A DNA stretch of 27,736 bases from a virus. Under the pieces are notes generated by a model that saw nothing but the letters and a program-made list of their open reading frames with translations, ran no database searches and was not told the DNA's origin. The stretch covers positions 1-27,736 of IMG/VR virus record IMGVR_UViG_3300040807_001643, one strand, 5' to 3'. Numbering within the stretch: position 1 is the first letter of the stretch; each line of letters begins with the position of its first letter. Made by a program: the position numbers and the translations under genes. Shown here one piece after another: positions 1 through 26,654 of the stretch.

Positions 1-368
1 CTAAACATAGGATATTGAATATTTGCTGTAGTTCCCCAACTTAAATTAATAACGTCGGGTTGAAAATCTTGGTATGCTCGTAACAAGGGATTAGGCTTAT
101 CGTGATCTACATCTTCTGCTATTACAGTAACCTCTTTGTAATCGTTGCCAAATGATCCGTAAAAGTTTTGCAATGCCAACGGCCCGTGTGTAGTTGGACC
201 AGCTTGAAAATAATCTAAAATTACTGCTACTGGTTCATTTTTATCAACTTTAAGAATATCATCGCCGGCTAAACTAATTGGCTCGCCATTACTATCATTG
301 CCATTGTGCTGACATGCTGCTAATAATGGAAATAAAGAGAATATGCTTCTTGGAGTTTTCTTTTTCAT
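1..368 (-). CDS. Subtilase-like (S8) lipoprotein, C-terminus cut off by the window edge
   Basis: Only the first 122 codons are visible; the gene runs off the left edge. The N-terminus is lysine-rich, followed by a hydrophobic stretch and a lipobox (LAAC, Cys19), so the product is probably exported and lipidated. After a short linker, residues 47-112 resemble the start of a subtilisin-type catalytic domain. There is a hydrophobic strand ending in Asp52 (VAVILD), then THG with His61, then INLSWG at 107-112, which matches the strand before the substrate-binding region. The catalytic Ser would lie outside the window. The usual Asp-Thr/Ser-Gly around the catalytic Asp is replaced by DYF, so activity is uncertain. 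The start ATG overlaps the stop of the upstream 293-aa gene (ATGA), so the two are probably translationally coupled. The subtilase assignment is inference from motifs. Confidence 0.6.
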   Translation of the reverse strand, partial: MKKKTPRSIFSLFPLLAACQHNGNDSNGEPISLAGDDILKVDKNEPVAVILDYFQAGPTTHGPLALQNFYGSFGNDYKEVTVIAEDVDHDKPNPLLRAYQDFQPDVINLSWGTTANIQYPMF

Positions 369-1246
369 TTGCTTTCCTCAAAACTATTTACAGTGTTCAA
401 AAATCCTTGTAGTCCAAAAAGGTTTTTTTGTTGTGCTTCTTGTAAGCTCATTCCTCTACCTAGCAGGTAAGAAGACATAGGACTTTCTAATCCCTTACGA
501 GCATTTTTCCATAGTTGAATTTTTATAGTTTTAATTTCATCCCAACTTACATCTTTGTTTTTAATTCGCATTATAGTATCAACTTCTTCTTTATCGATGA
601 TATGATCATTAAACAATATGTGTTTGATAAGAATCATATCTGTTAGCAACCAAACAACATAATTTATATCATAGCCTACCTTACTGTCAACCGTTGGATA
701 GTAATCATTATACATATTCCAATTATTTTTCTTGTCAACGTGTTCTTGGTTATTACCATCAAATTTTTGACTCCAATTGTATTCTACACTAGGAATACAA
801 TTCCAAAAATTTTCATAAGACAAACGTGCCTGCTGCCAAAAGTTTAATCCATTACCTGGAACACAAATAAAATCATAATACTTAGAAAATAATTCTTGAT
901 TTATGATACTAATTTTGTCAAATTTAATTGCTGCTAAATGTTTGATAGCATGCGAAAATTCGTTTTGTTTTAAATTCTTAGGACGAAGTAGCATTGCAGC
1001 ATAATTAGCAAGTATTGCTGATGCTTGCTCTTGCATTAATCCTTTATCATAAGTTATTGATAATACTTCGTCATTATTAGGAAAAGCAAAAAAAGGATTA
1101 ATCTGTACTTTGTGTGAATAAAAAAGTATACTGTCTCGATCACTATTTTCTTTGTTTGTTTCAGTTAAGTAACTACCTACAACTGCTTCAAAGATAGGAT
1201 TGTTATGTTCTAGTTGAACATTGAATTGGTGATCAAGTTTTTGCAT
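365..1246 (-). CDS. Hypothetical protein, 293 aa, family not recognised
   Basis: I do not recognise a family. The protein is soluble-looking, rich in Asn, Lys and aromatic residues, and has no signal peptide. There is one moderately hydrophobic stretch around residues 195-212 (NYVVWLLTDMILIKHILF), flanked by charged residues and more likely a buried helix than a membrane span. The start ATG overlaps the stop codon of the exonuclease upstream (TAATG), and its stop overlaps the start of the lipoprotein downstream. It is therefore the third gene of a four-gene coupled unit starting at about 1934. Being fixed between a nuclease and an exported protease-like lipoprotein suggests a shared expression time but does not reveal a function. 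Confidence 0.8.
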   Translation of the reverse strand: MQKLDHQFNVQLEHNNPIFEAVVGSYLTETNKENSDRDSILFYSHKVQINPFFAFPNNDEVLSITYDKGLMQEQASAILANYAAMLLRPKNLKQNEFSHAIKHLAAIKFDKISIINQELFSKYYDFICVPGNGLNFWQQARLSYENFWNCIPSVEYNWSQKFDGNNQEHVDKKNNWNMYNDYYPTVDSKVGYDINYVVWLLTDMILIKHILFNDHIIDKEEVDTIMRIKNKDVSWDEIKTIKIQLWKNARKGLESPMSSYLLGRGMSLQEAQQKNLFGLQGFLNTVNSFEESK

Positions 1247-1770
1247 TAAGATAACCCTAATTCTTTATAGGCCATTTGCACACCTTTTGCTTGATAATAA
1301 GCATCGGCTAATGCGTTGTGTAAATCTTTTTGTATACCCTTTCTAGGGTCATTTTTACACATGCTAAAAAGTGTGCGACTATCTCGTACTTGCCAAAAGT
1401 TCCAAGGAATATTTTTGTTGTTTTGTCTAAGCATATCTTCAAGAATAGTAATATCAAATCCGTAACCGTGTCCCCAAAGTACATCTACACCATTCATCCA
1501 TTTAGGCAATGTATATAAAAAGTCTATTACGGGTGTTCTGTCGTCTTCTCCAAATGCTTCTTCTTGCGCTTTTGGATCTTGGTTACTCCACCAAGCAAGT
1601 GTGTCTTCGCTAACATCTCTATCTTGACTGTCAAATTCTAATTTAAAATAAAACTCACTATGGGGTTCAGAGTTGTCGTAAGGATTAAATTTTACACCAC
1701 CTACTGTTAAAACGCTTGCTTTAGGTGTAGTATGCAGCGTTTCTAAATCGATCATTCCGTGAGTAGCCAT
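1246..1770 (-). CDS. DEDDh 3'-5' exonuclease (DexA/Rv2179c-like)
   Basis: This is a DnaQ-superfamily 3'-5' exonuclease of 174 aa, about the length of the stand-alone phage and bacterial exonucleases. Motif Exo I is MIDLET with Asp8 and Glu10. Exo II is the segment around 99-108 (WGHGYGFDIT) with Asp106. Exo III is the HNALAD segment with His151 and Asp156, which makes it the DEDDh subclass. The Trp-rich strand near residues 57-65 (DTLAWWSNQ) is also typical of the T4 DexA-like and Rv2179c-like exonucleases. It would degrade single-stranded DNA or RNA ends in the cytoplasm, for example for nucleotide recycling or repair; which substrate is not decided by the sequence. It starts 2 bases after the stop of the small membrane protein gene. 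Confidence 0.85.
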   Translation of the reverse strand: MATHGMIDLETLHTTPKASVLTVGGVKFNPYDNSEPHSEFYFKLEFDSQDRDVSEDTLAWWSNQDPKAQEEAFGEDDRTPVIDFLYTLPKWMNGVDVLWGHGYGFDITILEDMLRQNNKNIPWNFWQVRDSRTLFSMCKNDPRKGIQKDLHNALADAYYQAKGVQMAYKELGLS

Positions 1771-1772
1771 CG

Positions 1773-1934
1773 TTAGCCCTTCCTATTTTCTTGTCCAATA
1801 CCTGAGATGATAAGGAATACGTAAAGAATAGGCCATGCCCATCCTGTTAAGAATCCTGTGATATGTAGTGCCATTAATGCAATGCCTGTAAGTCCTGTTG
1901 TACCTACGCCTGCTGTTTGTGGTGTAATTTTCAT
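1773..1934 (-). CDS. Small membrane protein, 53 aa
   Basis: A 53-aa reading frame with a strong ribosome binding site: AAGGAG lies 5 bases before the ATG at 1934. After a short polar N-terminus it is almost wholly hydrophobic, with one long or two short membrane segments (about residues 12-28 and 31-45), and it ends in a charged tail (GQENRKG). It is the first gene after the sigma70-type promoter at 1958-1986. The stop is 2 bases before the exonuclease start, so the genes form one operon. Function is unknown. Small hydrophobic phage proteins of this kind may act at the host inner membrane, but nothing here shows that. Confidence 0.75.
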   Translation of the reverse strand: MKITPQTAGVGTTGLTGIALMALHITGFLTGWAWPILYVFLIISGIGQENRKG

Positions 1935-1939
1935 GAAAA

Positions 1940-1982
1940 CTCCTTAGCTTTATACATATTATAACGTATAAATGCTAAGGAG
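1940..1982. repeat. Inverted repeat over a promoter
   Basis: The 9-base arms CTCCTTAGC (1940-1948) and GCTAAGGAG (1974-1982) pair perfectly. Inside them TTTATAC (1949-1955) pairs with GTATAAA (1966-1972), leaving one unpaired base at 1973 and a 10-base loop. Sixteen paired bases in 43 is not expected by chance. The repeat covers the -10 and most of the spacer of the promoter and reaches the Shine-Dalgarno of the small membrane protein gene. It also follows the MazG-like stop at once, so it could be an operator, a readthrough terminator (only a TTTT follows it), or both. Confidence 0.7.
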
Positions 1983-1986
1983 TCAA
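1958..1986 (-). promoter_or_regulatory. Near-consensus sigma70 promoter
   Basis: On the minus strand TTGACT (1986-1981) is followed after 17 bases by a perfect TATAAT (1963-1958). The predicted start is near 1951, giving a leader of about 17 bases that holds the AAGGAG ribosome binding site of the small membrane protein gene. This points to expression by unmodified host RNA polymerase, unlike the NATAAATA late promoters elsewhere in the window. Confidence 0.75.
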
Positions 1987-1993
1987 GTAGTTT

Positions 1994-2344
1994 TTATATA
2001 AATTTATTTAACTTAGGGGGTTGCCAGCCTTCTGGCTTTAGAACTTTGCCATCTTCACGTTTGCGCACCTTGCCTGTTTCTGCATCAATCTTAGCAAAGT
2101 TTGTGTCCATTACTTCTTTCCACGCACCTTCTCCGTCAAAGCCGCCTGCTCTAATAGCACCCATAGTAACAACTAGGATGTCTACTAGTGCATCTAACTG
2201 TTCTACCTTGTCGTTTGCTGCCACTGCTTCTACTAGCTCGCCCACTTCCTCGTCAATAAGACTGAGATACATTGCGTAATTTTCTTGACTAGGTTTTTGA
2301 TCACACGCAGTTTGAAATTTGTCAATATCTTTAAAAGGATTCAT
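1994..2344 (-). CDS. MazG-like nucleotide pyrophosphohydrolase
   Basis: A 116-aa all-alpha NTP/PRA pyrophosphohydrolase (MazG superfamily). The metal-binding signature is clear: DEEVGE gives EExxE with Glu32, Glu33 and Glu36. About 15 residues on, Asp51 and Asp55 in QLDALVDILV give the DxxxD half. A short C-terminal segment is rich in Lys and Pro. Such enzymes hydrolyse nucleoside triphosphates to monophosphates and pyrophosphate. In marine phages MazG relatives have been discussed both as dNTP or ppGpp-level modifiers and as host-DNA recyclers; this sequence does not decide the substrate. The start overlaps the stop of the co-chaperonin gene, so it is the last gene of the operon behind the promoter at 3183. 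Confidence 0.8.
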   Translation of the reverse strand: MNPFKDIDKFQTACDQKPSQENYAMYLSLIDEEVGELVEAVAANDKVEQLDALVDILVVTMGAIRAGGFDGEGAWKEVMDTNFAKIDAETGKVRKREDGKVLKPEGWQPPKLNKFI

Positions 2345-2748
2345 TACTGACTCACAAAAGCTGAAGGATCTATAGTTGCATGTTCACCGTCACTATATTC
2401 TGCGCCAATTTGAACACTTTCGGGTTTTTCATCCGAGTATGCTAAAATACTTTCAGTTTCTACCATACGTATTTCTATTTCACCTTCTTCTGTTTCTAAT
2501 TTAATACTACGTGTCCAGCGACCGTGTTCTATAAGAATCCATTCTCCGACTTCATAAGGATCTCTATTTCTAGGTCCTTTAGAATATATTTTTGCCCAAC
2601 GTGGATAAATTCCTCTAGTTTTACCGTCATCGTTGCCTAAAATTATTCCACCCTTAGTAGTTTGCTCACCAAAATACATATCAGTTACTAAAACTCTATC
2701 ACCAATTGCTTTTGGAGTTCCTTTAATACTATTAATGTTTTGAGACAT
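2344..2748 (-). CDS. GroES-like co-chaperonin (T4 Gp31 functional type)
   Basis: The protein is 134 aa against about 95-110 for GroES and Gp31. Residues 12-90 follow the GroES fold: the entry strand PKAIGDRVLV, then the mobile loop with TTKGGIIL near residues 30-37, then the PRWAKIYSKGP and DPYEVGEWILIEHGRW segments. The HGRWTR motif and PRW are typical of the GroES-like proteins of marine T4-like phages. The C-terminal extension of about 35 acidic residues is not part of classical GroES. It would cap the host GroEL to fold phage proteins, in T4 the major capsid protein. It lies between the lysine-rich 135-aa gene and the MazG-like gene with 1-base stop/start overlaps, in a unit with a late promoter. 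Confidence 0.85.
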   Translation of the reverse strand: MSQNINSIKGTPKAIGDRVLVTDMYFGEQTTKGGIILGNDDGKTRGIYPRWAKIYSKGPRNRDPYEVGEWILIEHGRWTRSIKLETEEGEIEIRMVETESILAYSDEKPESVQIGAEYSDGEHATIDPSAFVSQ

Positions 2749-3155
2749 TATTCACCTTTTCTTACAAAATTTCCGTCTGCGTCTTCTATCCATTCATCTT
2801 GTGCTTCAGCTTCATTGAACATTTCTTGTTCTTCAGTAGTTAACTCAACTTTTGGTTCTACTTTTTTTGTAGTTTTTTTAGCTGGTTTTTCTTCAGCTAC
2901 TGGTTCTTGAACTTCGTCTGTTGGCGTAGGTGCTGGCTTGCCGCTAGATTGTTTTACTGATCCAACTTGATCGTAATATTCTTTAATTAGATCTTCACGC
3001 TTTTTTACAATTTGTCCGCCTGGTCCCAAACGATCACCTCGGGCGTTTACTTTTGCATTACCAACAGCCGGAGTTAGTTCATTCTTTTTCATTAATAGAT
3101 CCATGTCAACGGCTTTACCTCGCATGCTTCTATATGTTTTTCTACCTTTGGCCAT
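2748..3155 (-). CDS. Lysine-rich hypothetical protein, probably a conserved T4-like phage protein
   Basis: The 135-aa product has a basic N-terminal half, including AKGRKTYRSMRGK and a GDRLGPGG turn near residues 40-48. A low-complexity Pro/Glu/Lys linker (about 70-103) follows, then an acidic C-terminus. The N-terminal block looks like one seen in proteins of marine T4-like phages, but I cannot name a function. The two-part charge pattern would suit a nucleic-acid- or scaffold-binding protein; that is inference. It is the first gene after the GATAAATA promoter at 3183-3190 and overlaps the co-chaperonin start by one base. Confidence 0.8.
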   Translation of the reverse strand: MAKGRKTYRSMRGKAVDMDLLMKKNELTPAVGNAKVNARGDRLGPGGQIVKKREDLIKEYYDQVGSVKQSSGKPAPTPTDEVQEPVAEEKPAKKTTKKVEPKVELTTEEQEMFNEAEAQDEWIEDADGNFVRKGE

Positions 3156-3182
3156 TTTGCCTTCTCCTATTATATACGTATA

Positions 3183-3190
3183 TATTTATC
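3183..3190 (-). promoter_or_regulatory. T4-type late promoter (GATAAATA)
   Basis: The minus-strand octamer GATAAATA, preceded by C, lies 28 bases before the ATG at 3155. It overlaps the stop codon of the upstream DnaE-like gene. It would drive the lysine-rich protein, co-chaperonin and MazG-like genes late in infection. Confidence 0.65.
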
Positions 3191-3707
3191 GTAAAAACTC
3201 TCGCCAATCCAGGTCAAACTGGATTGAATTTATTTTATGTACACCTATTATGTATAATACATAACTTGCTACACTTGATCCTCTGCCTACACCCCATACA
3301 ATGTCATTCTCACGCATAAAGTCTACAAGATATACCATATAGCGTAATAAGTCTAATAAATTTTTTTCTTCATACGCAATAAATTCTTCATCAATTCTAT
3401 CAACTTCTTTGTGTGTTTGACATCTTTGTTCTACCCATGAATATATATCCATATTCTTATATTCTTCAGGCATAAACCATTCACCTTGACATACACCGTC
3501 AAAAGTCTTTTGATCTACATCTAGTGGAATATATTTCTGCAATGGACTCATACCTTGTTCTTCCATTGCACTATTGAATTTTTCTATTTCATCAGTAGGT
3601 TCACACAAAACCACATGAATTTTATCTGTTTGGCCAGAATAAATCATATCGATAAGATCACGATTAGAGAATCTTGGTATACCTAGTTCGTCAGTTTTCA
3701 TAAGCAT
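3186..3707 (-). CDS. Stand-alone fragment related to DNA polymerase III alpha (DnaE), no catalytic part
   Basis: A 173-aa protein. Residues 138-173 (starting WGVGRGSSVAS, then a YVLYIIGV helix and LDWREFLR at the end) match the conserved bacterial Pol III alpha block GxGRGSAxGS...LGIT...LFERFL. The residues before it (about 105-137, with a DLLRYMVYLVDFM helix) fit the preceding DnaE helix. In DnaE the catalytic aspartates follow the FERFL block, but this protein stops there, so it cannot polymerise DNA alone. No Shine-Dalgarno is visible; M1 or M3 could be the start, and translation may be coupled to the 78-aa gene whose stop is 9 bases upstream. Whether this is a degenerate remnant or a kept nucleotide- or DNA-binding module cannot be told, but the frame is intact. 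Confidence 0.7.
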   Translation of the reverse strand: MLMKTDELGIPRFSNRDLIDMIYSGQTDKIHVVLCEPTDEIEKFNSAMEEQGMSPLQKYIPLDVDQKTFDGVCQGEWFMPEEYKNMDIYSWVEQRCQTHKEVDRIDEEFIAYEEKNLLDLLRYMVYLVDFMRENDIVWGVGRGSSVASYVLYIIGVHKINSIQFDLDWREFLR

Positions 3708-3716
3708 ATATGTATT

Positions 3717-3953
3717 TTACGATACATTTATAAGATTGTCAAGATCAGAATTGCCTTGATTTTGTTCTTGCTGTAATTTTTTTTGTTCTAGTCGCTTTTC
3801 TTCTAAAGCAATTTTATATGTGTCAAGAGCAAGAATAATTTGATGTCTAGTTTGTTCGTTAGAAGTAATATGGTAAACTCTGTTAAGTTTAAAAATTTTT
3901 TCTTCTAACTCAGACTCAGATAATTGGCTAGCATCGTTAATTAACGGGTGCAT
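3717..3953 (-). CDS. Coiled-coil hypothetical protein, 78 aa
   Basis: A small, highly charged protein. The first 30 residues contain SELEEKIFKLNRVYH, followed by a long Glu/Lys/Gln helix (about residues 33-66) with heptad-like spacing, and the end is Asp/Asn-rich (NSDLDNLINVS). Proteins of this look are common in marine T4-like phages, but I know no assigned function. It starts on the stop of the 193-aa virion protein (TAATG) and ends 9 bases before the DnaE-like gene, so it belongs to the operon driven from 4553. Confidence 0.8.
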   Translation of the reverse strand: MHPLINDASQLSESELEEKIFKLNRVYHITSNEQTRHQIILALDTYKIALEEKRLEQKKLQQEQNQGNSDLDNLINVS

Positions 3954-4534
3954 TAAGGTTCAAACCTTCCGTGATATTGTCCAAATACATAAGAATTTCC
4001 TCCATCGTACGACCAAAAGTCTACGATTATTGGATTAGTTGGACTGTCTACTAAAAAGTTTGCAGGCCAGTTTGGAGATTTATAAATTGTTGCGCCGCCT
4101 AGAGCTGAAAAGTTTACAGTTACAGGTTCTCCTTCTGTACCAAAAAATTGTAATCTAAATTTTGCTACTCTGTCACCTTCTGTTGGAAAATTTGATAATG
4201 TTAAACTTATAGTTGTTCCGGCTGCTTCTTCAGCAAATCTAATACTTTGATACATTCCGTTAGTAAAACTAATTTCTTGTTCTGATGAAACATTACCGAC
4301 AGAGGAAAAGGATTCGGTGCTTGCATTAAGTGTGCCATCTGTAAGAAGTGTACCGTTAAAGTTATTCTCGGCATTTAGTTTTGCAGTGCTATTTTCTAGT
4401 GTAGTAATTTCTGTAGCGGCAGTTGTTAATCCATCTTTAATGATTTGGAAATTATCACGAAACCCTTGAGTATCGTTATCTACCCCGGCTACCGGATATG
4501 CTGCGTCAATTGTTGTTGCTACTATATTGCTCAT
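3953..4534 (-). CDS. Small virion structural protein with fibre-type N-terminus
   Basis: A 193-aa protein. Residues 8-36 contain DAAYPVAGVDNDTQGFRDNF and an IIKDGL helix. This is a divergent version of the N-terminal block seen in the neighbouring fibres (a Gly/Asp turn, then R-x-x-F/N-F and an amphipathic helix). A short coiled coil follows (ITTLENSTAKLNAE), and the rest is a Thr/Ser/Gly-rich beta domain ending in YVFGQYHGRF. It is likely a minor tail or fibre component, possibly a short fibre or baseplate decoration. It is the first gene after the GATAAATA promoter at 4553-4560 and is separated by 47 bases from the sulfotransferase upstream. Confidence 0.7.
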   Translation of the reverse strand: MSNIVATTIDAAYPVAGVDNDTQGFRDNFQIIKDGLTTAATEITTLENSTAKLNAENNFNGTLLTDGTLNASTESFSSVGNVSSEQEISFTNGMYQSIRFAEEAAGTTISLTLSNFPTEGDRVAKFRLQFFGTEGEPVTVNFSALGGATIYKSPNWPANFLVDSPTNPIIVDFWSYDGGNSYVFGQYHGRFEP

Positions 4535-4552
4535 GATGTTTCCTCTTTGTAT

Positions 4553-4560
4553 TATTTATC
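4553..4560 (-). promoter_or_regulatory. T4-type late promoter (GATAAATA)
   Basis: The minus-strand octamer GATAAATA, preceded by C, lies 19 bases before the ATG at 4534 in the 47-base gap after the sulfotransferase gene. The leader contains AGAGGAAAC, a fair ribosome binding site. Confidence 0.7.
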
Positions 4561-4581
4561 GTATAGTGCTTCTATTATAAT

Positions 4582-5109
4582 TTATTCTGAAGTAAGTTTT
4601 TTCCATTTATCTACTGAAATCTCTTTTCTTTCAGAAAGAATTTTTCTATAAGCAGCAAATTCTGCATCCATTTGTTTTTTTGAATAATAGCGTTCAAACA
4701 TTGGTTGCCAATTTCTGCAATTAGAATGTGTAGTAATCACATGCGGGCCGTATTCTGAGACGTAATTGTTATATTTTTCAAATTTAATGATTTCAAAATC
4801 AATAGTTGTAGAACTAATTTGTTCAAGAAATAAACCTGAATGACTTTTAGTCCAGCTGTCGCCCTTGTTCATGTTTTCTGTATGTTTAATTGCAGACTGT
4901 AATCTTGAATAAGGATTCCTAATTACAAGTATTTTATTTTTAACTCCAGAACTTAGCCATTCTCCTACACTACCCGAAGAACTTAATTTACGATTTCCTG
5001 ACGAATCTGGTTCTGTTAAATAGTTCAATCCAAAGTAATTGTACATACTAAAGTGTCCACTTCTTGGAGCACATAATACGCTATAATTTTCGGTAGATCG
5101 TAAAAACAT
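4582..5109 (-). CDS. Sulfotransferase-like protein
   Basis: A 175-aa protein with both PAPS-binding signatures of sulfotransferases. The 5'-phosphosulfate loop is VLCAPRSGHFSM at residues 11-22 (compare PKxGxTS/PRSGSxW in the families), directly after the first strand. The 3'-phosphate motif is LVIRNPYSRLQSA at residues 61-73 (compare the consensus R-x-P-x-x-R-x-x-S). The protein is shorter than most cellular sulfotransferases (about 200-300 aa). It would move sulfate from PAPS to a hydroxyl of a glycan or other acceptor. Its place inside the fibre cluster, 11 bases after the 1173-aa adhesin gene, suggests the acceptor is a virion protein, a virion glycan or the host surface. Acceptor and activity are inference. 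Confidence 0.7.
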   Translation of the reverse strand: MFLRSTENYSVLCAPRSGHFSMYNYFGLNYLTEPDSSGNRKLSSSGSVGEWLSSGVKNKILVIRNPYSRLQSAIKHTENMNKGDSWTKSHSGLFLEQISSTTIDFEIIKFEKYNNYVSEYGPHVITTHSNCRNWQPMFERYYSKKQMDAEFAAYRKILSERKEISVDKWKKLTSE

Positions 5110-5120
5110 GTTTTAAGTCC

Positions 5121-8100
5121 TTATTCATTAAATTGATAATTTGCAAATAATATAAAAGTTTCATTTTCTTTATCATTTGCAGACTTTACAATATATCTAT
5201 CTATGTCGTAGTTAAGTTTTTTAGGATCAAAATTGGATCCGTTAAGATTTCTAATTATGTCTGCTGCATATCCTGGTTTACAATAGCATAACGGTATTGC
5301 AGGAATGTAATCTAATTCTTGTAAACCTACTTGCGGAGTTCTCATCCACAAAGGCAAGTAGCTTCTTTTAGTTTTTCCAATAGTTGATATATTATCTCTC
5401 ATATTATCTAAGCTACTAATATATTTCAAATTATCTTTACTTTGACTTATATTAATTGCATTAGAATCTACTTTTATTGTGTTTATAGGTTGAGGTTGTA
5501 TTTTATAAGGCTCTGAATCTGTTACTTGTAATTCAATTGTTACATTATCGGTACTACGAATTACTATTTCAAAATCACTTTCATCTGCATCAACTGACAA
5601 CGTTTGGTCTTTAGTTTCTATTATAATTTCGTTATTATCTACTTGTATAAATTTTATTGTATTTCTTCCGTAAATAGGCAGTGCATCATACCCTGCTCCT
5701 GTTTTAGTAACATCGTCTTTTGAATTATAAAGCATACTGTCTACTGTAATTTGTTTAGTAGTGTTTATTTTAAAAGATTTTGCTGTTGTTCCTTTTGTAG
5801 CATTAGCAGGATCTATTACAGGAATATAAACTACTTCATAGATAACATCATTTGTGCCTGGCAATTTTGCAAAAGCAGATTGTAAACTTCCTAGAATATA
5901 TTTCTTTCTTTTGTGATTTTTTGCAGCAGCTGAAACAAAATTGTTTATATTCTTTGCTTCTATTCCAGAGTACACTAAAAGTTCTAAATCAGTTTGTATT
6001 CCAAATTCAGGGTCTTGAGGTCTATAGATTTTCTCTGGCTCAAATATATCTGAATTGCTAGTAAAAGATTGCAAATAGCTTCTTTCTATTTCTTTCAGCA
6101 TAGGTTTCATATATATTTTAGTATACTTTGTATTATCATTATCCTCTACAACTAAAACAAATTCTCTTGTTAGAGTAGCGTAATTAAATCTGTCTCTTGC
6201 TTGTACCGTAAACTTAAATTGTCTATCAAATAACGTATCTCCTGGAAATGAACCATCCCAAGTTGCATCACCGTCGAAATATGTTAAACCTAAGCCATCT
6301 GAATTTTGATATTGTCTAGGAACACCTATAATTTCCCCGTCATATGTAAGAGACATCCCATTTGGCAGTTTACCGCTTACAATTGAATATATCATTTTTG
6401 TATCAGGTACTGTACTTTCAGCCTTAACACTTAATGTGCTTTGTAAGTTTGCTGCAATAGTACCTAAATCACTATCGGTAATCCAAGCAATAGTACTATC
6501 TATTTCACCAATTGTTTTAAGTTCAAAGGTTTTTATTGAGCTTGGTATATCTACTTCGTCCCTATTTGATATAACAATATTTTTACTGAAAAAGTCCTTT
6601 TGGAATAATGCAATACCTATATTTCTTCCTTGATTTAGATTGCTTTGTAAATTAATATCTAATTCGATTCGATCTTCATTATCTCTTATTAAATCTATTC
6701 TAAAGTCTGAACTGTCGGCACCTTTAAAAAATTGACTTATATTTTGCTTAATTCTTGTTAAACTTGTACTAGGTAGTTTAACATTCCAAACTCTGTCATC
6801 TTTAGCTGTAATATAAACCGGCCCGCCATATTCTCTTTGTATTGCCTGCCTAGTTACTGTGAGCCTATTAGATAAACTTAATTCTTCTAATGTCTCTGCA
6901 ACTTGTGTCCATTTTGCACCTTCAAATATTATTTGCTGATTACCATTAGCATCTAAAATAAAATCTCCGTCGCCGTCTATCTGTGCTTCAGTAGTATGTG
7001 CTTCAACACATTTATATATAAATCCATTACCACCTAAGTTTTCGTCGTATATAACATAGTCGTCTACAAAATAACTTTCGCCTATTTCAATATTACTAGG
7101 TGCATAATAAGGAAATATTGGATTATTTTGCGGACTGATTTGAACAACATCATATTCGATGTAAGGAACAATACTTCCAATTGTGTATTTTTCTGTTTCT
7201 GAGAATTTTAATGTTCTATTTTTATATTTTTCTTTTTCTTTTAATCCTAATCTATTAGCAAAAAAATAAGACTGGCCTTTTTTTGCTGTTTGAGAAACAA
7301 CTAAACTTATTTCAGGAGCCAATGTTTCATCTAAAAATATTACATCATAGTCTGTATTAGAATCATCTACGTTTATAACATTATACAATCTATTTTTTAT
7401 TAAAATTTGTCTGCCTCTTAGTGCTAACAAGTCGTTAACGCCGTCATCTAACCCTGTTAAATCAGTTTTATAAATTTTAAAACTAGAATTTCCTAATAAA
7501 ACATCTTCATAATATGTTCCAAATATTTCTACAGTTTCTAAATCAAAAGTTAATCTTGTTGCACGTAGCGTAAATTTATGATCTTTTACTACGGCAGGTT
7601 GGTATGGCAAGTAACCTGTAATTGTTCCTGTAGAATAATCTAAATTTAATCCTGTAGGTAAAACACTAGGTGTACCGTCATTGTTTATATCTTCTAGTGT
7701 ATAACGTACAATGCCTTCTAGTTGATCGTTTTCGATAGTTTCGATTGGTAAAATTACAAAATTATCTGCTCTTTTATAACCTAAATTATTAGGTGTAAGC
7801 CATACTGGTGTTCTTACATTTGTTGCATCCGATGTAAATACGCCAGTACCTGCATGCATTAGAGTGTTATCAGATTTTAAATAATCATCACCGACAAGAT
7901 ATATTTTAAACTCTCTTGTGGTAAAAGTGTCACCGTCTGTTACAGTTACTCTGAAAGGATAGTATCTATTAAGTTTTTTTGGCTGGTTAGTAGTTGTATT
8001 AAAATCAAAGACTTCACTATCGTAAAAATAACTTCCGTAACCATTATTAGACAATGCTGCAAAATCTATAGGCAAATTTCCGTATGGTGCTGCATCGTAT

Positions 8101-12994: not shown

Positions 12995-13121
12995 TTGGTG
13001 CTCCAAGTTGTACTCTTAATTTTCCAGCAGTTGCAACAACACGTCTTGGCTGCGGGTTTTTGTTGTCTACAGAAGCTTTTGCTCCTTTTTGAATCAATTT
13101 ATCTATATTTTTATTTTCCAT
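12975..13121 (-). CDS. 48-aa basic protein between two fibre genes
   Basis: A short reading frame starting at ATG 13121, with AGGA 9 bases upstream. Its start overlaps the stop of the 2644-aa fibre (TAATG), the same junction type as between many genes here. The product is basic and soluble (MENKNIDKLIQKGAKAS at the start, then PQPRRVVATAGKLR). Its last 20 bases run in another frame through the start of the 332-aa fibre gene, so translation would be coupled. Without it there would be an otherwise unusual 126-base gap between fibre genes. No family is recognised; a fibre-associated chaperone or assembly peptide is only a guess. Confidence 0.6.
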   Translation of the reverse strand: MENKNIDKLIQKGAKASVDNKNPQPRRVVATAGKLRVQLGAPNGKTNN

Positions 13122-16100
13122 TAGTGTTTTCCTACAACCACTTCAACAATTCCTCTATCCTGATCAGTTTTTTCGCTTATTGCTTTACCAAGCACTTGTC
13201 CTACGCCCGGGGAGTTGTTTACTATTGCATAACCTGGTACGGCACTTGTAACCAGCATATCGCCTTTCTTTACAGTTCCAATAACTTTACATGGTACTCT
13301 ACCTTGTAATGCTAATCCTACAACGTGATCACCTTCCAATGCACTATTCATCAAGTGTGCTGGGTTAGTTGTTACAACACCTGCTACACTGGTTTGTCCT
13401 TTAGCACTACACACTGTTACTTCTGCATCACCGCCAAATACAAGCACTGTACCTGGTTCATAGTCCGCATCACCTAAGTAGTTTTCTGCCAAGTCAGCAT
13501 AATATGCTTCAGTAGCAGTACCATGGAATGTTGTTGCATATACGTTTGCATATTTTAGTGATGTACTACCTATATCATAGGTATTGTCTGTATCAGGTAA
13601 TGCACCTGATGAACTAAATGTCATCGGAGATACACTTGAACTTGTAGCACTATCAGCAGTAATTATTGCAATTTCACCTACAAGTGATTTACCAGTATTA
13701 GCACCAATACCTATACCTGTTGATGCTGCGCCTTTTTCACCTGGTGCTTCAATGAAACTAGAATAAATCCAATCTACACCTAAATTGCTTTCGCCATTAA
13801 AGTTTGACAAACCTTGTAGTGTACTTTCTGCTACACCTGTTGCACCAATATTAACACTTCCTGAAATTTCTAAATCAGGAAATGTAGGAGCTACATATCC
13901 AGGATCAGCAGGTGCACCTACAGCAGGAGAGCCGCCAGCAGCTCTTAGTATTTCACCTTGCGAAGGAGTTTTAAAAATTACAGTTGTACCATCTAGCGAT
14001 AGTATTTCGTAACTTGCATCACCACCTAATATAAGTGAGTTAACTTGTATACTGCCATCGGCATCTGTTTTAACAATACTGTTAACTTCACCCGAAACAC
14101 TTACGTTAGAAATACCATAAGTACCTTCACCGGTTTTAATTAGTGCTTCACCTGGATCATCTGGTACTGTTAATTCAGTTACGAAGTCCGCATCTCCTAA
14201 GCCACCACCTTCTGAAATTATTGTGCTAAATGGAATTTGATCTATGTCATTATCTGAACTATCACCGCTCCAGTTTCCTAACACAGTACCATCATTTATT
14301 CTTTGTATTTTTTCTAATGGTAATTGGCCGTTGTCTATGCTTACCCAACCATCAGTAGTTGTAAATATACTTTCATCAAATGCAACAACACCTAAATCAT
14401 TTTGAGTAATACCTGTTGAACTTGCTCTTGTAGTTGCACTATTCAAGTTAAGCTTACTTTGAGAAATATTTGCTACACCATTTACATCGTCATTTACAAT
14501 AGAGTTTGGCTTTAATTGGAAATTTAGAGTTGTATATCTATCTGTTACAACACCAAATCCGTCTATAGTAACTTCTTTATTTGTTAACAGTTCTATATCA
14601 CTAGCTGGACTTTCAACACCGTTTACCCATTCATCAACAGGTCCGTCTACTACTAAACCTTCTGCACCGCCTGATACTAACAGTACATCAGGATCAGGCG
14701 AAGATCCAATCGGTTTACCGTCACTAAATGTTCCAGTAAGAGGTGTAAATGTTATTTCGGTTAAATCTCCTTCGTATCCTTCTACATTTTGTACATCTAC
14801 GATTGTTCCTGTAGCACCTGTAACGCTACCTGTAATTGTATCTCCTCGTTCAAAGGGTCCACTAACAATTGAACTTGCTAACACATAGAGTTTTTTATAC
14901 TCTGTTGATACTAGTAATTGGTTAGCGCCAAAGCTTTGATATTGCAAGCTTCTTAGATCTTTAATTTCGTCACTTAACCCACGACCGTCATCAACATATT
15001 TTTTAGTTGCAGCATCTGATTCAGAATTAGGTGCTTTTAGGTTTGTAATTGTATTACCAGCAGCGTTTAGATCGTCTGTCATTGGTACTGCGCCGTTTGG
15101 AGCAAGTACACCTGGACCTAGTTTGTTTGAAACAGGAGTACCGTTTACATCGTAACCTAGTCTTCTGTTAACATAACCACGTACAGCAAGTTCTGTTGGA
15201 ACAGTATCTGATGCGTTATCTGTCATCGCTGTGTCTGTTGAAAATTCAGTAATAACAACACCGCGTTTAAAGCCTAGTCCGTCAACATCTGATAGTGCAA
15301 GTGATGCACTAAATGTAACTGTACCAGTACCTTGGTCAACACTAAAGAATCTACCAACTCTAAAGATACCGTTTTGGTCTGTACTTACATAGAACACACG
15401 ACCTTTACCACGTTCGTCAACTTCTTTTGCTTGATCTTTTGAAGCTGGTTCACCAAAAATAACTGTAGGATAATTGGATTCATTAAAACCGCCTGAACCA
15501 ACATCTAAGAAATCATGTGATGTAGCACGACAAGTTGAAATATTAACTGTTACTGTTCCTTCGGCGCCAGCTTTTAGACCTGCTCTAATTGTTACAGTTT
15601 CTGACCCTAATACAACAGGAGAGCCTAATCCCTCTTCTAATCCACCTGGATTAGAATAATCTTCTAAATTAATACTGTCAATTACTGCAATGTCGACAAT
15701 TACATATTCATTGTCTTCGGCTAACGGAACTTCTGTATTAGTTCCATCTACTCCTCTTGCATTATACACATAAAACTTTTTACCACTCCATGTAAATATA
15801 GGAGCTTCTTGTAAGTTTTCTACTGTCCAACCAATCGGTCTATTAGCTTCAGGAGTTCTAGCATTATTATTCAATCTAGAAATTTCATTATCATCTAGTG
15901 TTGGTTGTACTGCAAGAACTCTGTCTCCAATTGTGCCGCCTTTGGTTGTTCCTAATCCTGCTAGAGGAATTTCTTGGGCTTTTGCACTATCTATAATCAA
16001 TCTAATATAATCATATGAACTATCAAAACCTGATTGTAATTGATCATTTTCTAATTCATTGCCTAGACTATCTGATGTTAAGAAACTAATACTTCTATAA

Positions 16101-19100
16101 ACAAAGTCTGGATTTTCGTTAAAGATAACAGCAGTACTTGGACGAATTGTAAGAACATCTGGTCTTGCAAAGTCTGAAATAATATGAGTTTGGTTTCTTC
16201 TATAGTTAATTCTATCACCAAATCCTACATCCTCTAATAACCCATCTGTACTAAACTGTGAGTCACTAGTTGAGAAATTTAGTTTGTAAACTTTACCACT
16301 ATACATTGGGCTATTAGAATCTACAAACGGAGATCCTGTTATTGTTGCGCCTGTTACAGATCCGCCATCAACTTCGGTAATTGTAATAAATGCATCGTTT
16401 TCAATTGTGCCACCACCTAAATACAATCCGTCAACTTCCATAGTGTCGCCAACTGTATAATTGCTGCCAGTATTGTTTATCTCTATACTATAACCATCTC
16501 TAATAGTTTTGTATAAAGTAAATGTAACACCTGCTGCTAAACCGTTATCTAAAACTTCGTTCTTAAATGGAATATCACCGCCTAAATATCTTATTCTTCC
16601 TATATGGGCGGCTGTTGGTGCAACATTTGCAACTTCATAACGTGCAAAAGCAGGACGATCGGGGTGATATATATCAAATTCTGATCTATTACTAGGAAGT
16701 TCTTTAAAGTCATAAGCATATAAGAATAGATTTAATTTTTCGTTAGCATAACCTGTGCTATCTACTCTTATAGGTATGCTATCCGCGCCTAATGCTATTG
16801 CAGTAGAATCTCCTGTAATTGGACCAGTAATTACTAGTTCGTTTGTTGTATCAAAAGCACCTGAAGTATCTTTTAAATATATTACTGATTCACCGATAGG
16901 AACAGCTACACTATCTCCTATTTGACTCGTATCTTTAGATACAGTACCTGTAGCATTTGTTATGTTTTGTGTTATTACTTCGCCTTCTTCTAGTATAACC
17001 GGACCTGCAAGTTCTAAAATTACGTTAGCACTAAATGTTTTTGCACTTTCAACCATGTCTTGTGCAAGTGCAATACTGTCTGGAATTTCGTTTGGATCTG
17101 ATCCTTCAGCAACTAGTCCGTATTCGCCATAACAACTTGAACCAGTTAAAGATCTAATCTCTGATCCATTTTTAGCATAGTAACTGGTCCAACAATAGTA
17201 CGTAAACATACTAACCATTTCTGATAGCGCACCGTTTACACAAACTAGACCATAACCTTTATCATTAATTTGAGTAAAGTCGTTACCTAGCATACTTCTG
17301 TTACCAGCTGTTTGTAGTGTAATTGGAATCGGCGAACTTAAATCGTCGAGATCTACCCCTGTAGATAGTTCACTAGTTAGTCCTGTAAATCCTTGTCCGT
17401 CATTTGAGCCCGGTGATAATATTAGTTCTGCTGTTCCTAGTTCTTTATCGTACTGTGTGACTGCATTGATCTGGAAACGTCTGCCATCGATATAAAACAC
17501 ACTTGGAGTTTCTGGCCTACGCACAAAAAGTCCTTGTGGTTCTAATGCACTACCTAAACTCTGTATGCTTAATCTAAATGCATCACCGTCTACTCTTTCT
17601 ACAACTTGAACTGCTGAGTTACCTACAAACGCATCGACAAATAGTCCTCCGCGGAATGCTTGTTTATTAATACTTGCAGCAAAACCTGTACCTGTTTGGC
17701 AGTACGGTGATTTAGTTAGTACTTGTCCTTCTGGATCAAGTACCATTTGGAAACCACCATGTCCTTGTCCGGTAATATTACGTAAGATAGTAGCGTCATT
17801 CATTAAGAACACATCCATTTCTGTATTTCTTAATGGCGGATTATAATCATCATTGAATGCAAATACAACTGTTTCGATCAAGTTATATATAACAGTTTGT
17901 GGTCCGTCTATTTGTCTCCAAAAATTAGCTATTTCAACAGCATCAAATGTACCACTCGATGTGTGTTCTGTTGTTGGAGTATAATAACGATCTTCACCTC
18001 CGATAAAATATTTTACTACGTTACCTAATCTATATAGTGTAGAAGCAGTCCATTCTGCTGGGTCACCGTCTCCATTAAATCCATCATATGCATAATCTAA
18101 GTTAACACCCGGATTTGGTGCTGATCCACTTGGGCCATACAATGTTGTTGGTTCTACACCTCTAATAATATCGTTTGCAAGAGTGTATATATGACGGATG
18201 CCGTCTATTGTTTCATCCTCGGTTCCTACTTCAACTGCACCTGCATAGTATTCACCTTGTGCCTCTAAAGAAAATTCATTGCCACCGTTGCGCAAATCTT
18301 TAACAAGAGCATCTACAATCAAACCAGAATCTCTTGAACATTTGGTTCTAGAATAACCTGGAGAACCTATAAGAGCAGGATAAGTGGTTTCTATATAATT
18401 AACAACTTGTTCTTGAATAAACTCTCTGTTGTCAATTAAAGCTAGTGCTGCCGTTTCCCAATCGCCAACGTTTTCGTAACCTGCACCAACATTTTTAAGT
18501 TTGTTAGGTTTTAGCAAATAATGATTACCAAAATAACCTTCTACTTCGTCTGAAATTGGATTAGTATATTGTACACCATTTGGAACTGTTACTACTGTAA
18601 AGCTGTATACTGCTGCGCCATTATTACCTAAAGCAGCATCTTGTACTGAAACAATTTCATTTGCTTGAAAATCTTTACCAGCATTAGTTACTGTTACATC
18701 TGTAACAGCGCCTGTTCCATCTACTGTAATTTCAAATATTGCATCGCTGCCTAGTTTGTTTGTAACATAGTCTACATCAGTTACAGTGTAAGTACCTGCT
18801 GGTCTTAGTGCATCTGCACTAGCAGTAAAGTCTATAGTTTCAATACTTGATTTACCTAAAACAAGTCCGTCAAATGTAGCATCTCTATAAAAGAAAAGAC
18901 TTGCATATCTTGATTGTGAAACACGATTTTTTGGACGTATTATAGTTCTTCTAAATTCGTCACCTTTGATAGAAACATTTGGCGGAACACGTATAGGAAA
19001 ATCTTCTTCGTATATACCAGATTCAACTCTAATAGTGACTTGAGTTTCATTGACAATATTGCCATATTCTAAAGGCTCGCCTTCTTCAAATTCAATAGGT

Positions 19101-21055
19101 TTTAGTAGTTGTACTTCAATTTCGTCAGTCTCAATTACACTAACCGGTCTTGATCCTGCTTCATACTTATAGTCGATTATTCTACCAATAGCACCTGAAT
19201 TTTTACCTCGTACTACTTTACCTGGAATAATATCTGTATTTCCTGGATTAGCTTGATCTATAAATCCATAGTTACCGTTGCTAATATTAATTTTATAAGT
19301 TGTAGTACCATCAACAACTTGCGGAGCATCTAGCACACCGTTTTCAATAACATCTAAAATAATATCAAACTTAGCTGCAATAGATTCGTCTGCTAAACTG
19401 TCAGGTATAACAGCAGCATCTATAAATTGTTCTACTCTATCTTGATAAGTTGTTGGAACAGCAGTGTTAGTAAGAATATAATCTCTAACTAGAACTTTAG
19501 CATATTCTATACCTGCAACAGTGTATGCTTTTTGTGAACCAATTGCTTTTTGTGCGCTCACATTTGAATAATATCTTACGCCCGCATAACGAGATAGATA
19601 GTTAGCATTATTTCCTAGTAGTGCATCAAGACTAACACTGTCTAGTATTAGTTGTACATCTCGTTGACATATTTCTTTATCATAATTATCTGCAAAAGAC
19701 GGATACAATGCATCTATGTATCCTGTAACTTCTTTTGCAACAAACTCTTTATTTTCAACTATAAGAGTTCTTGCATTTGATCTTCCTGAAATAGGACTTG
19801 TTATGCCAGCTGTGACAATAGTTCCTTCACTTTCGCCTGTGTTATATGTCATAGTTTGCATATAAGGACCAGGTTCTTTTGGAGAAGACAACATTATTTC
19901 TTCTGCTTTTTGTGCAGCAGCATTTATTGTTTTATATGCATACGCAGGATTTCTTCCTTCTTTTCCTACTGGAGTATAAGTTTGTCTGTCGTCTCCTGAT
20001 GCAGCACTAACATAAATGTTAACTTTACTAGATGCTGCGGCATTATCGACATAAAGCTTTGTTGCTGCTTGCAGATCATCTGGACCAAATGGTAAACCTG
20101 TACCAACTAATTCGCCAGGGTGATCATATAAATTTAACGGTCCTGTCATTGTATCGCCTTGACGACGAACAATACTCTTACGTGGAAGTGCTACATTAGA
20201 TAACCAGTTACCTTCTAAACTATCATCATAAGCAGCATCGAGTAACGTAAATACTCCTGTACCACCACTTAACAGTATTCTACCATTCCCAGAAATAGCG
20301 TCATCTTCTGTAGGAAATAGCCCTATATCGTTATCATTAGCAATACCTATATAGTATGTTGTTCCAGTCACTACACCAAAAGGATCGTCTCCTGTACTAT
20401 TAAAAATAAAAGGAGCACCTGTGTAAGCTTCTGATAGTCCGTGATTATTTGCTCTAAAATAACCTGCTGTAAGGCCATCGGCTGTTATTGTATAGATATC
20501 AGTACTAGCAGGTTCGTCCCCGACTCTTAAGCCACCGCCTGCAACTGCCTTTTCTTGATAGTTTCTGTCGGCATAGTTTTTGTTAATTACTAATGCACCA
20601 ATGTCTAAATCTGTTCCATGTACATCGTTGAAAAGGTTAATTGCATCTTGACTAACGGTAACATTTGCAATAGGTTGAGTCGCTGCATCTAAGGGTCCAC
20701 TTAAAGTAGGTTCTGGGTCATTCGACAGTTTAGATACTAATTGTTTTACAATTAATTTTCCGTCAATTGAAAAATCAAATCCAATAGTATCGTTAGATCC
20801 GTCTAAAGCATTATCAGAAGCAAATTCTAATAAGTTTAATCCACTACCGTCTGAACGTACAACAGGAATTTTATTTTCGTTGCCTTCATAATTGTTAGGA
20901 GTATCACTTAGGTCAGTAAATGATATCTGTCCACCTATACCAAATACAGCATAAAGTTCTTGGAAGTTTTCGTTTACTTTACGAAACGACTCGCGAATAC
21001 TATCGCCTGTGCCGTCATTACCCTCTACGCCAATATCAACCTGTTGTCTTGCCAT
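13121..21055 (-). CDS. Giant tail fibre/adhesin, 2644 aa
   Basis: The largest gene of the window. Residues 4-37 carry the shared fibre block (VEGNDGTGDSIRESF, then KVNENFQEL). Residues about 50-75 repeat the FTDLSDTPNNY module of the 845-aa fibre. From about 345 on, the NIYVSAASGDD and YAYKTINAAAQKA segments resemble the entry of phage parallel beta-helix domains. IRVESGIYEEDFPIRVPPN near 680 continues that fold. Two segments with KEICQRDVQLILDSV and TKCSRDSGLIVDALVKDL are repeated units. TYDIGSTSLKYANVYATTFHG precedes a C-terminal domain of about 128 residues (from YYADLAENY to the end), which resembles C-terminal domains of cyanophage fibres. A GGAG precedes the ATG; the gene is 13 bases after the Fe-S carrier gene. 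Most likely a host-recognition fibre. Confidence 0.85.
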   Translation of the reverse strand: MARQQVDIGVEGNDGTGDSIRESFRKVNENFQELYAVFGIGGQISFTDLSDTPNNYEGNENKIPVVRSDGSGLNLLEFASDNALDGSNDTIGFDFSIDGKLIVKQLVSKLSNDPEPTLSGPLDAATQPIANVTVSQDAINLFNDVHGTDLDIGALVINKNYADRNYQEKAVAGGGLRVGDEPASTDIYTITADGLTAGYFRANNHGLSEAYTGAPFIFNSTGDDPFGVVTGTTYYIGIANDNDIGLFPTEDDAISGNGRILLSGGTGVFTLLDAAYDDSLEGNWLSNVALPRKSIVRRQGDTMTGPLNLYDHPGELVGTGLPFGPDDLQAATKLYVDNAAASSKVNIYVSAASGDDRQTYTPVGKEGRNPAYAYKTINAAAQKAEEIMLSSPKEPGPYMQTMTYNTGESEGTIVTAGITSPISGRSNARTLIVENKEFVAKEVTGYIDALYPSFADNYDKEICQRDVQLILDSVSLDALLGNNANYLSRYAGVRYYSNVSAQKAIGSQKAYTVAGIEYAKVLVRDYILTNTAVPTTYQDRVEQFIDAAVIPDSLADESIAAKFDIILDVIENGVLDAPQVVDGTTTYKINISNGNYGFIDQANPGNTDIIPGKVVRGKNSGAIGRIIDYKYEAGSRPVSVIETDEIEVQLLKPIEFEEGEPLEYGNIVNETQVTIRVESGIYEEDFPIRVPPNVSIKGDEFRRTIIRPKNRVSQSRYASLFFYRDATFDGLVLGKSSIETIDFTASADALRPAGTYTVTDVDYVTNKLGSDAIFEITVDGTGAVTDVTVTNAGKDFQANEIVSVQDAALGNNGAAVYSFTVVTVPNGVQYTNPISDEVEGYFGNHYLLKPNKLKNVGAGYENVGDWETAALALIDNREFIQEQVVNYIETTYPALIGSPGYSRTKCSRDSGLIVDALVKDLRNGGNEFSLEAQGEYYAGAVEVGTEDETIDGIRHIYTLANDIIRGVEPTTLYGPSGSAPNPGVNLDYAYDGFNGDGDPAEWTASTLYRLGNVVKYFIGGEDRYYTPTTEHTSSGTFDAVEIANFWRQIDGPQTVIYNLIETVVFAFNDDYNPPLRNTEMDVFLMNDATILRNITGQGHGGFQMVLDPEGQVLTKSPYCQTGTGFAASINKQAFRGGLFVDAFVGNSAVQVVERVDGDAFRLSIQSLGSALEPQGLFVRRPETPSVFYIDGRRFQINAVTQYDKELGTAELILSPGSNDGQGFTGLTSELSTGVDLDDLSSPIPITLQTAGNRSMLGNDFTQINDKGYGLVCVNGALSEMVSMFTYYCWTSYYAKNGSEIRSLTGSSCYGEYGLVAEGSDPNEIPDSIALAQDMVESAKTFSANVILELAGPVILEEGEVITQNITNATGTVSKDTSQIGDSVAVPIGESVIYLKDTSGAFDTTNELVITGPITGDSTAIALGADSIPIRVDSTGYANEKLNLFLYAYDFKELPSNRSEFDIYHPDRPAFARYEVANVAPTAAHIGRIRYLGGDIPFKNEVLDNGLAAGVTFTLYKTIRDGYSIEINNTGSNYTVGDTMEVDGLYLGGGTIENDAFITITEVDGGSVTGATITGSPFVDSNSPMYSGKVYKLNFSTSDSQFSTDGLLEDVGFGDRINYRRNQTHIISDFARPDVLTIRPSTAVIFNENPDFVYRSISFLTSDSLGNELENDQLQSGFDSSYDYIRLIIDSAKAQEIPLAGLGTTKGGTIGDRVLAVQPTLDDNEISRLNNNARTPEANRPIGWTVENLQEAPIFTWSGKKFYVYNARGVDGTNTEVPLAEDNEYVIVDIAVIDSINLEDYSNPGGLEEGLGSPVVLGSETVTIRAGLKAGAEGTVTVNISTCRATSHDFLDVGSGGFNESNYPTVIFGEPASKDQAKEVDERGKGRVFYVSTDQNGIFRVGRFFSVDQGTGTVTFSASLALSDVDGLGFKRGVVITEFSTDTAMTDNASDTVPTELAVRGYVNRRLGYDVNGTPVSNKLGPGVLAPNGAVPMTDDLNAAGNTITNLKAPNSESDAATKKYVDDGRGLSDEIKDLRSLQYQSFGANQLLVSTEYKKLYVLASSIVSGPFERGDTITGSVTGATGTIVDVQNVEGYEGDLTEITFTPLTGTFSDGKPIGSSPDPDVLLVSGGAEGLVVDGPVDEWVNGVESPASDIELLTNKEVTIDGFGVVTDRYTTLNFQLKPNSIVNDDVNGVANISQSKLNLNSATTRASSTGITQNDLGVVAFDESIFTTTDGWVSIDNGQLPLEKIQRINDGTVLGNWSGDSSDNDIDQIPFSTIISEGGGLGDADFVTELTVPDDPGEALIKTGEGTYGISNVSVSGEVNSIVKTDADGSIQVNSLILGGDASYEILSLDGTTVIFKTPSQGEILRAAGGSPAVGAPADPGYVAPTFPDLEISGSVNIGATGVAESTLQGLSNFNGESNLGVDWIYSSFIEAPGEKGAASTGIGIGANTGKSLVGEIAIITADSATSSSVSPMTFSSSGALPDTDNTYDIGSTSLKYANVYATTFHGTATEAYYADLAENYLGDADYEPGTVLVFGGDAEVTVCSAKGQTSVAGVVTTNPAHLMNSALEGDHVVGLALQGRVPCKVIGTVKKGDMLVTSAVPGYAIVNNSPGVGQVLGKAISEKTDQDRGIVEVVVGKH

Positions 21056-21068
21056 TTAATTTGCTCCG

Positions 21069-21428
21069 TTAAAATTGTGGAATACTATCCATATCAAAGT
21101 TTACACTAACACCACAACCGCACGACGATTGGGCATTAGGATTTTTTATTTCAAAAGTTGAACCTACTAAACTGCGTGTATAATCAACTGTTGTTCCTAT
21201 CAAAAACATAAGTGAGTGTTTGCCTATTACAAAAGTACAGTTATTGTCTGTCTTAATAACTTCGTCACCTTCTTCAAGTTCTTTTGGGGACTGCATTATT
21301 CCCCATTCATACTCAAACCCTGCACAACCACCACCTTTGATGTTTAAACTAATTGCATAACACGCATTTTCTTCACATAATAAATCAATTTGTGCTTTTG
21401 CAGCATCAGTAAGTGTACAGATACTCAT
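21069..21428 (-). CDS. A-type iron-sulfur carrier protein (IscA/HesB/ErpA family)
   Basis: A 119-aa protein of typical family length with the three conserved cysteines. Cys35 lies in IKGGGCAGFEY, and Cys103 and Cys105 lie in the C-terminal SSCGCGVSV motif. FLIGTTVDYTRSLVGSTFEI (residues 75-94) is the diagnostic central strand pair. Proteins of this family carry Fe-S clusters to apo-enzymes in the cytoplasm; relatives (hesB) are known from marine T4-like phages. Here the gene is placed under a CATAAATA late promoter and directly ahead of the giant fibre gene, so it is likely made late together with structural proteins. It may support an Fe-S enzyme of phage or host. It could also bind iron for virion assembly, which is speculation. 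Confidence 0.9.
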   Translation of the reverse strand: MSICTLTDAAKAQIDLLCEENACYAISLNIKGGGCAGFEYEWGIMQSPKELEEGDEVIKTDNNCTFVIGKHSLMFLIGTTVDYTRSLVGSTFEIKNPNAQSSCGCGVSVNFDMDSIPQF

Positions 21429-26616: not shown

Positions 26617-26654
26617 AAAGTCACCACAGGTTGTAAATTTTAAGTCCATAGTTT

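Follow-up and report, generated by a model that had tools for sequence, protein, structure and literature searches.

The locus and its hairpin

One stretch of virus DNA, a record of 27,736 bases that is here called the window and that carries tail-fibre genes together with a gp31/GroES-like gene, raises the question of what is served by a promoter lying inside a large inverted repeat that also takes in a ribosome binding site. The repeat is found on the minus strand between a MazG-like gene (1994-2344) and TM53 (1773-1934), a gene encoding a predicted membrane protein of 53 amino acids, with the order on that strand being TTGACT, 17 bases, TATAAT, 12 bases, AAGGAG, TTTTC and the ATG of TM53. 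The initial annotation of this DNA had placed a TTGACT-17-TATAAT promoter within the repeat and had taken AAGGAG to be common to the repeat and the ribosome site, and both descriptions hold, with the -35 hexamer at 1986-1981, the -10 hexamer at 1963-1958 and the Shine-Dalgarno AAGGAG at 1945-1940, 5 bases ahead of the ATG at 1934. As the stop of the MazG-like gene lies 7 bases ahead of the -35 box, the mRNA of this gene enters the hairpin. At E 0.001 TM53 matches neither a Pfam nor a PHROG family, and it has no relative in a collection of cultured phages. The next gene, dexA (1246-1770, minus strand), encodes a DexA/Rv2179c-like exonuclease and begins 2 bases past the TM53 stop, its translation may be coupled to that of TM53.

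RNA folding, together with the covariation described below, gives a hairpin of 20 bp at 1938-1984 of the minus strand, with a 5' arm at 1984-1964, a loop at 1963-1958 and a 3' arm at 1957-1938, in which A1973 of the 5' arm is the one unpaired base. The last bases of the -35 hexamer open the 5' arm, the 6-base loop coincides exactly with the -10 hexamer TATAAT, and the Shine-Dalgarno is inside the 3' arm. Judged by promoter spacing the transcription start is predicted about 7 bases past the -10 box, at 1950-1952, and thus within the 3' arm. The hairpin has a minimum free energy of -25.4 kcal/mol compared to -7.6 +/- 2.4 for shuffled sequences (z -7.4), none of 200 shuffles being as stable, and the opposite strand folds too, less far beyond its own shuffles (z -4.6). 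A separate repeat search returned arms at 1939-1951 and 1971-1983 that are 92% complementary. The repeat had been described as 43 bases long with 16 paired bases; it is real, although folding extends it to 20 pairs and its ends differ by a few bases. Above its base the stem is rich in A and T, and TTTTC comes after it.

Further copies of the arms had been suggested as something to look for, yet the only exact copies of the arm GCTAAGGAG in the window are the two arms themselves, and with one mismatch allowed there are 6 sites compared to 4.25 +/- 2.07 expected. Comparison with Rfam gave no match that reached a gathering score, with three miRNA-precursor models scoring 18.6-24 bits against gathering scores of 78-100.

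Other genes of the window, all on the minus strand, are of some interest in their own right. A tail-fibre-like protein of 2644 amino acids is encoded at 13121-21055 (phrog_9851 and others), and a UV-endonuclease of the UvdE family at 25522-26649 (PF03851, 2e-38). Three genes at 21772-24663 have haem-binding CxxCH-like motifs, the 123-aa product of one matching cytochrome c (PF00034, 3.6e-07) and the 424-aa product of another weakly matching PF13442; it is possible that these are host-derived redox genes carried by a phage. The gene at 21069-21428 has a PHROG match of unknown function and a CATAAATA motif ahead of it, the cysteine pattern of its product looks like what is presumably that of an A-type iron-sulfur carrier.

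Leaders in related phages

A search of viral contigs with TM53 found 94 encoding stretches, of which 80 were kept, and a search with MazG found 315, of which 80 were kept. It is apparent from these that p193, p78, DNA-polymerase-like, p135, gp31-like, mazG, TM53 and dexA recur in this order and share a strand. TM53 gave 102 plus-strand hits, 3 of which have no ATG and were set aside; the remainder comprise 57 unique leaders, and 47 of the 57 have a near-consensus sigma-70-type promoter, defined as no more than one mismatch per hexamer and a spacer of 16-18 bases. Read-through RNA was simulated for the leaders, and of the 51 that were scored, with 6 of the 57 dropped, 45 have a closed Shine-Dalgarno, meaning an unpaired probability below 0.2. 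On the transcript that starts after the -10 box the predicted median unpaired probability of the Shine-Dalgarno in the same 51 leaders is 0.53, being above 0.5 in only 29 of the 51.

Not all leaders follow the pattern. In L066 the promoter is present and the Shine-Dalgarno is fully open, in L025, L061 and L076 it is closed only in part, and in L040 it is mostly open with the AUG sitting in a helix instead. L069 has a promoter without a hairpin, and L017, L064 and L071 lack both the hairpin and a clear promoter directly ahead of TM53. The unit is also missing there in L024, where it stands one gene earlier, ahead of an extra gene. A sigma-70 promoter alone need not bring a hairpin in these phages, as the DNA-polymerase-like gene has 45 unique promoter leaders that fold weakly, with a median minimum free energy of -4.3.

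Covariation of the two arms

Both TTGAC and GGAG are present in 49 of the 57 leaders, the other 8 lacking one or the other and being dropped. Of these, 41 share one register, with no fewer than 8 of the 10 lowest positions paired, and among the 41 there are 29 different arm pairs. Beyond the fixed CTCC/GGAG pair, 205 of 232 cells are paired in the 29 arm pairs, compared to a mean of 144.7 (sd 7.3) and a maximum of 172 when the 3' arms were re-dealt 5000 times. Kinship was allowed for with a tree of the 41 loci built from four proteins, on which changes were counted by parsimony. Positions 4-11 show 95 pair changes, including 46 compensatory double changes, 11 that are one-sided yet leave the pair intact, 21 breaks and 10 repairs. 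When only positions 4-9 are counted there are 43 compensatory changes in the true register, against 0, 3, 3 and 0 when the register is slid by -2, -1, +1 and +2. In L036, L045, L060 and L061 the 5' arm has shifted from the -35 box into the spacer, with the Shine-Dalgarno region still paired. The conserved property is pairing with the Shine-Dalgarno and not the sequence of the arm, and the inverted repeat before TM53 is confirmed as a real and strongly selected RNA element. Conservation of the arms alongside the promoter hexamers, on which the initial annotation had staked its reading, is absent for the sequence of the arms and present for their pairing.

The kind of mismatch that is tolerated also bears on the nature of the helix, as a sense-strand RNA helix favours G-T over A-C mismatches and a DNA palindrome has no reason for such a preference. 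Of 96 sequence-defined arm pairs, 69 have 4 or more Watson-Crick pairs out of 7, the sole basis of selection, and their mismatches include 46 G-T and 14 A-C. Without selection on pairing the 96 arm pairs have 60 G-T and 42 A-C, compared to 73.5 and 59.9 when re-dealt, which is a weak effect. The excess of G-T over A-C points to a helix of sense-strand RNA.

A proposed gating of TM53 translation

The reading that is preferred here, with a probability of roughly 0.8, is that an RNA hairpin enclosing a sigma-70-type promoter makes the translation of TM53 depend on where its transcript starts. Transcription from the inner promoter would give an RNA that begins within the 3' arm and is without the 5' arm, leaving AAGGAG free and allowing TM53 to be made. 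RNA started upstream, notably from T4-type late promoters at p193 and p135, would hold both arms, and the resulting fold would hide the Shine-Dalgarno with the consequence that TM53 would not be made. dexA would probably be made along with TM53 by coupling. The net effect would be an early-type gene that lies inside a late-transcribed cluster on the same strand without being translated late. Of the two parts of this proposal the mechanism is very likely and the early/late timing is plausible.

Candidate sources of read-through RNA are found upstream in the window, with the T4-type late-promoter motif GATAAATA present at 3183-3190 ahead of the 135-aa gene (p135) and at 4553-4560 ahead of the 193-aa gene (p193), both on the minus strand. 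In relatives 73 of 76 p193 leaders and 33 of 83 p135 leaders have the late motif NATAAATA no more than 65 bases from the start, and within that distance it was found in none of 57 TM53, 80 mazG, 77 dexA, 69 gp31-like and 77 p78 leaders. The window has 7 copies of NATAAATA on the minus strand and 0 on the plus strand, where base composition alone predicts 11.5 and 6.2, so the count is not enriched; all 7 are positioned 25-35 bases ahead of an ORF start that has a Shine-Dalgarno-like site. A scan of the minus strand over 1-6000 called no terminator-like site.

The assignment of sigma-70 promoters to early and of NATAAATA to late transcription is borrowed from T4-like phages. In the marine T4-like phage Melnitz, according to part of the published account, predicted sigma-70 promoters were assigned to the early class and TATAAAT to the late one, with no promoters of a middle class being found (PMC9004378). 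If the assignment holds, TM53 would be an early product that is kept off late RNA. A sigma-70 promoter is also found ahead of the DNA-polymerase-like gene in 47 of 84 leaders, thus early read-through is possible as well and a strict early/late timing is not forced. Of 12 large related records, which are fragments, 4 have a match to the late sigma factor family phrog_234, and no such match was found in the fragmentary records G001, G002, G003, G005, G012 or G013.

Other possible roles of the hairpin

The layout had first been read as the operator of a dimeric regulator, in which a DNA-binding protein on the palindrome would block the promoter. A palindrome that covers the region from the -35 box to the start does have the right geometry, but its half-sites change freely with compensation, as the 29 arm pairs in 41 leaders demonstrate, and the arms vary in length, in their bulges and in how they are placed against the promoter (L036, L045, L060 and L061 being examples). 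The constant partner is the Shine-Dalgarno, G-T exceeds A-C, and across 20 records there is about one arm match per record. With arms that diverge, pairing that is kept and so few matches the operator was rejected, and the chance of it being correct is very slight. It had also been suggested that the hairpin could end or attenuate transcription coming from the mazG gene. That the hairpin would act on mazG read-through RNA is retained here, but what has been conserved is the pairing with the Shine-Dalgarno. In the window the stem is strong and leads into TTTTC, which fits an intrinsic terminator, and 24 of 48 leaders have a T run behind the stem (4 or more T in a stretch of 8 bases); the other 24 have none, the stem of the window is rich in A and T above its base, and the scan of 1-6000 mentioned above made no call. 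Termination could add to the effect where a T run is present, as the main role it lacks support with half of the leaders having no such run, and is thought unlikely.

A stem of 20 bp is sufficient in length for RNase III, and a site at which this or another enzyme cuts or stabilises the polycistronic RNA, with the hiding of the ribosome site as a side effect, would be compatible with the fold. It would leave unexplained the pairing of the stem with the Shine-Dalgarno and the presence of a promoter within it, as well as the joint absence of clear promoter and hairpin in L017, L064 and L071, and only a slim chance is given to it. A/U-rich hairpins that sequester a Shine-Dalgarno can also serve as RNA thermometers or ligand switches. 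As such a switch would have to act on TM53's own transcript, which is predicted to be without the 5' arm, and as Rfam returned only miRNA-precursor models far below their gathering scores, this is scarcely credible. Gating of TM53 by the start of its transcript remains the preferred reading.

The unit ahead of other genes

The unit is not limited to TM53. A TM53 match is lacking in 41 of 107 unique mazG/gp31 loci, and in a number of these 41 dexA comes first with the promoter-hairpin unit directly ahead of it, strongly so in L087, L103, L115, L121 and L142 and more weakly in L095, L130 and L135. In others without TM53 (L092, L093, L096) there is a promoter only, without a strong hairpin, and in some (e.g. 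L081, L105, L107) no promoter-hairpin unit is found at the mismatch level used. L103 (record G014, 6387-6436) has a second promoter-with-arms match just past mazG, TTGACTCCTTGTT...AACAAGGAG, with the pairing judged by eye. In six named cyanophages the mazG gene starts before the preceding gene has ended or within about 20 bases downstream of it, leaving the unit no room.

Viral contigs were also scanned with the pattern TTGACTCCT-N14-TATAAT-N5-30-AGGAG, which occurs in at least 120 stretches, and 87 unique matches were analysed; a complete control scan with the non-complementary TTGACTGGT gave 51 stretches, 36 of them unique. Of the 87 unique matches listed, 58 gain at least 4 of 5 further pairs when the stem is extended, compared to 3 of 36 in the control. 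Downstream of the 87 matches listed are dexA (26), TM53 (20), p78-like genes (2), a DNA-polymerase-like gene (1), no ORF (3) and other genes (35), with the last including, among the matches listed, cyanophage-type MazG (144-aa family), dUTPase and DNA ligase. As 14 of the 35 other matches listed extend by at least 4 pairs, some of the 35 are plain promoter matches.

For the units before other genes a gene resembling p193, with its GFRDNF motif, is found directly upstream at a distance of 10-22 bases in 14 of 37, and 12 of these 14 genes have NATAAATA within 60 bases of their start. The 37 leave out L258 and L293, which have no full upstream ORF; a few units that are TM53-like or have a weak hairpin remain among the 37. 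A p193-like gene upstream and a gene of nucleotide metabolism downstream suggest that the unit marks the border between late-type structural and early-type genes, in distinct gene contexts. Three loci, L360, L361 and L362 (pieces of the records G001, G003 and G018), share a layout in which the late-type motif GATAAATA leads directly into the hairpin ATGCGTA...TACGCAT. In this hairpin the AUG is in the stem and AAGGA is looped out, and it precedes a protein of 90-odd residues starting MSRPKP.

Comparison with known systems

Control of translation by a promoter within a hairpin is well described for T4, where e, soc, 49 and I-TevI (also I-TevII/III and segB, and mobE of Aeh1) are the examples given in the parts of the literature drawn on here (PMC3014915, PMC2988022). 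In these a long RNA hides the Shine-Dalgarno or AUG in a helix, and the RNA that starts from a promoter within the 5'-strand DNA lacks that strand and is well translated (PMC3014915, PMC2988022). The T4 genes so controlled are, in the same sections, all late genes present on early or middle RNA, and the inner promoter is of the T4-late type (PMC2988022). When T4 gene e was put through the same leader analysis as TM53 it showed the same layout, its hairpin being recovered with two TATAAATA motifs. As in the T4 group, the predicted read-through RNA of TM53 has a stable helix that encloses the Shine-Dalgarno or AUG, and there is a promoter within the hairpin DNA from which the predicted RNA would be without the 5' strand. 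Unlike the T4 group, the inner promoter is not of the late type TATAAATA, as none of the 57 TM53 leaders has NATAAATA and 47 of the 57 have a sigma-70-type promoter. In T4 the late inner promoters keep late genes off early RNA, whereas for TM53 the candidate read-through comes from late-type promoters. Hence the logic of the unit looks reversed relative to that of T4.

Phages that have the TM53 unit are uncultured marine phages related to T4. They resemble Melnitz in having sigma-70 promoters together with a late TATAAAT scheme, but in that part of its description no hairpin-embedded promoter is reported (PMC9004378). A search of the literature led to T4 reviews and uncovered no account of a phage with the reversed arrangement, a sigma-70 promoter in the hairpin and late read-through. 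As far as the sequences indicate, the unit is the known physical trick of T4 e, soc, 49 and I-TevI with another class of promoter, and it is the latter that appears to be new.

Outside of phages, the transposases of IS10 and IS50 are shielded from outside transcription by a sigma-70-type promoter in an inverted repeat, with read-through RNA hiding the ribosome site. This is the nearest parallel in logic to the TM53 unit, differing in that the genes gated here would be TM53, dexA, mazG, dUTPase and DNA ligase in an ordered late phage cluster with no transposase.

A possible rule for early-type genes

A hairpin may not be the only means of tying translation to the start of the transcript. In the window the DNA-polymerase-like gene (3186-3707, minus strand) has the promoter TTGACA-17-TAAAAT at 3714-3742, with its ATG exactly 6 bases past the -10 box. 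The same distance is seen in 45 of 47 promoter-bearing leaders of this gene, there being 85 unique leaders of which 38 have no such promoter, and a Shine-Dalgarno was found in none of the 47. The mRNA of the DNA-polymerase-like gene is thus predicted to be leaderless.

It can be proposed, tentatively and with somewhat less than even odds, that start-gated translation is a general rule for early-type genes in the late cluster, using embedded-promoter hairpins for TM53, dexA, mazG and others and leaderless mRNAs elsewhere. If true, each gene would be read only from the RNA of its own promoter, in a mirror image of T4 e, soc and 49 and with no regulatory protein. If such a reversed scheme is widespread, a compact phage could set genes for host takeover and nucleotide metabolism beside its structural genes, and would switch off these early genes late in infection without a repressor. 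For uncultured phages the unit would also provide a sequence signature by which the starts of early genes may be recognised.
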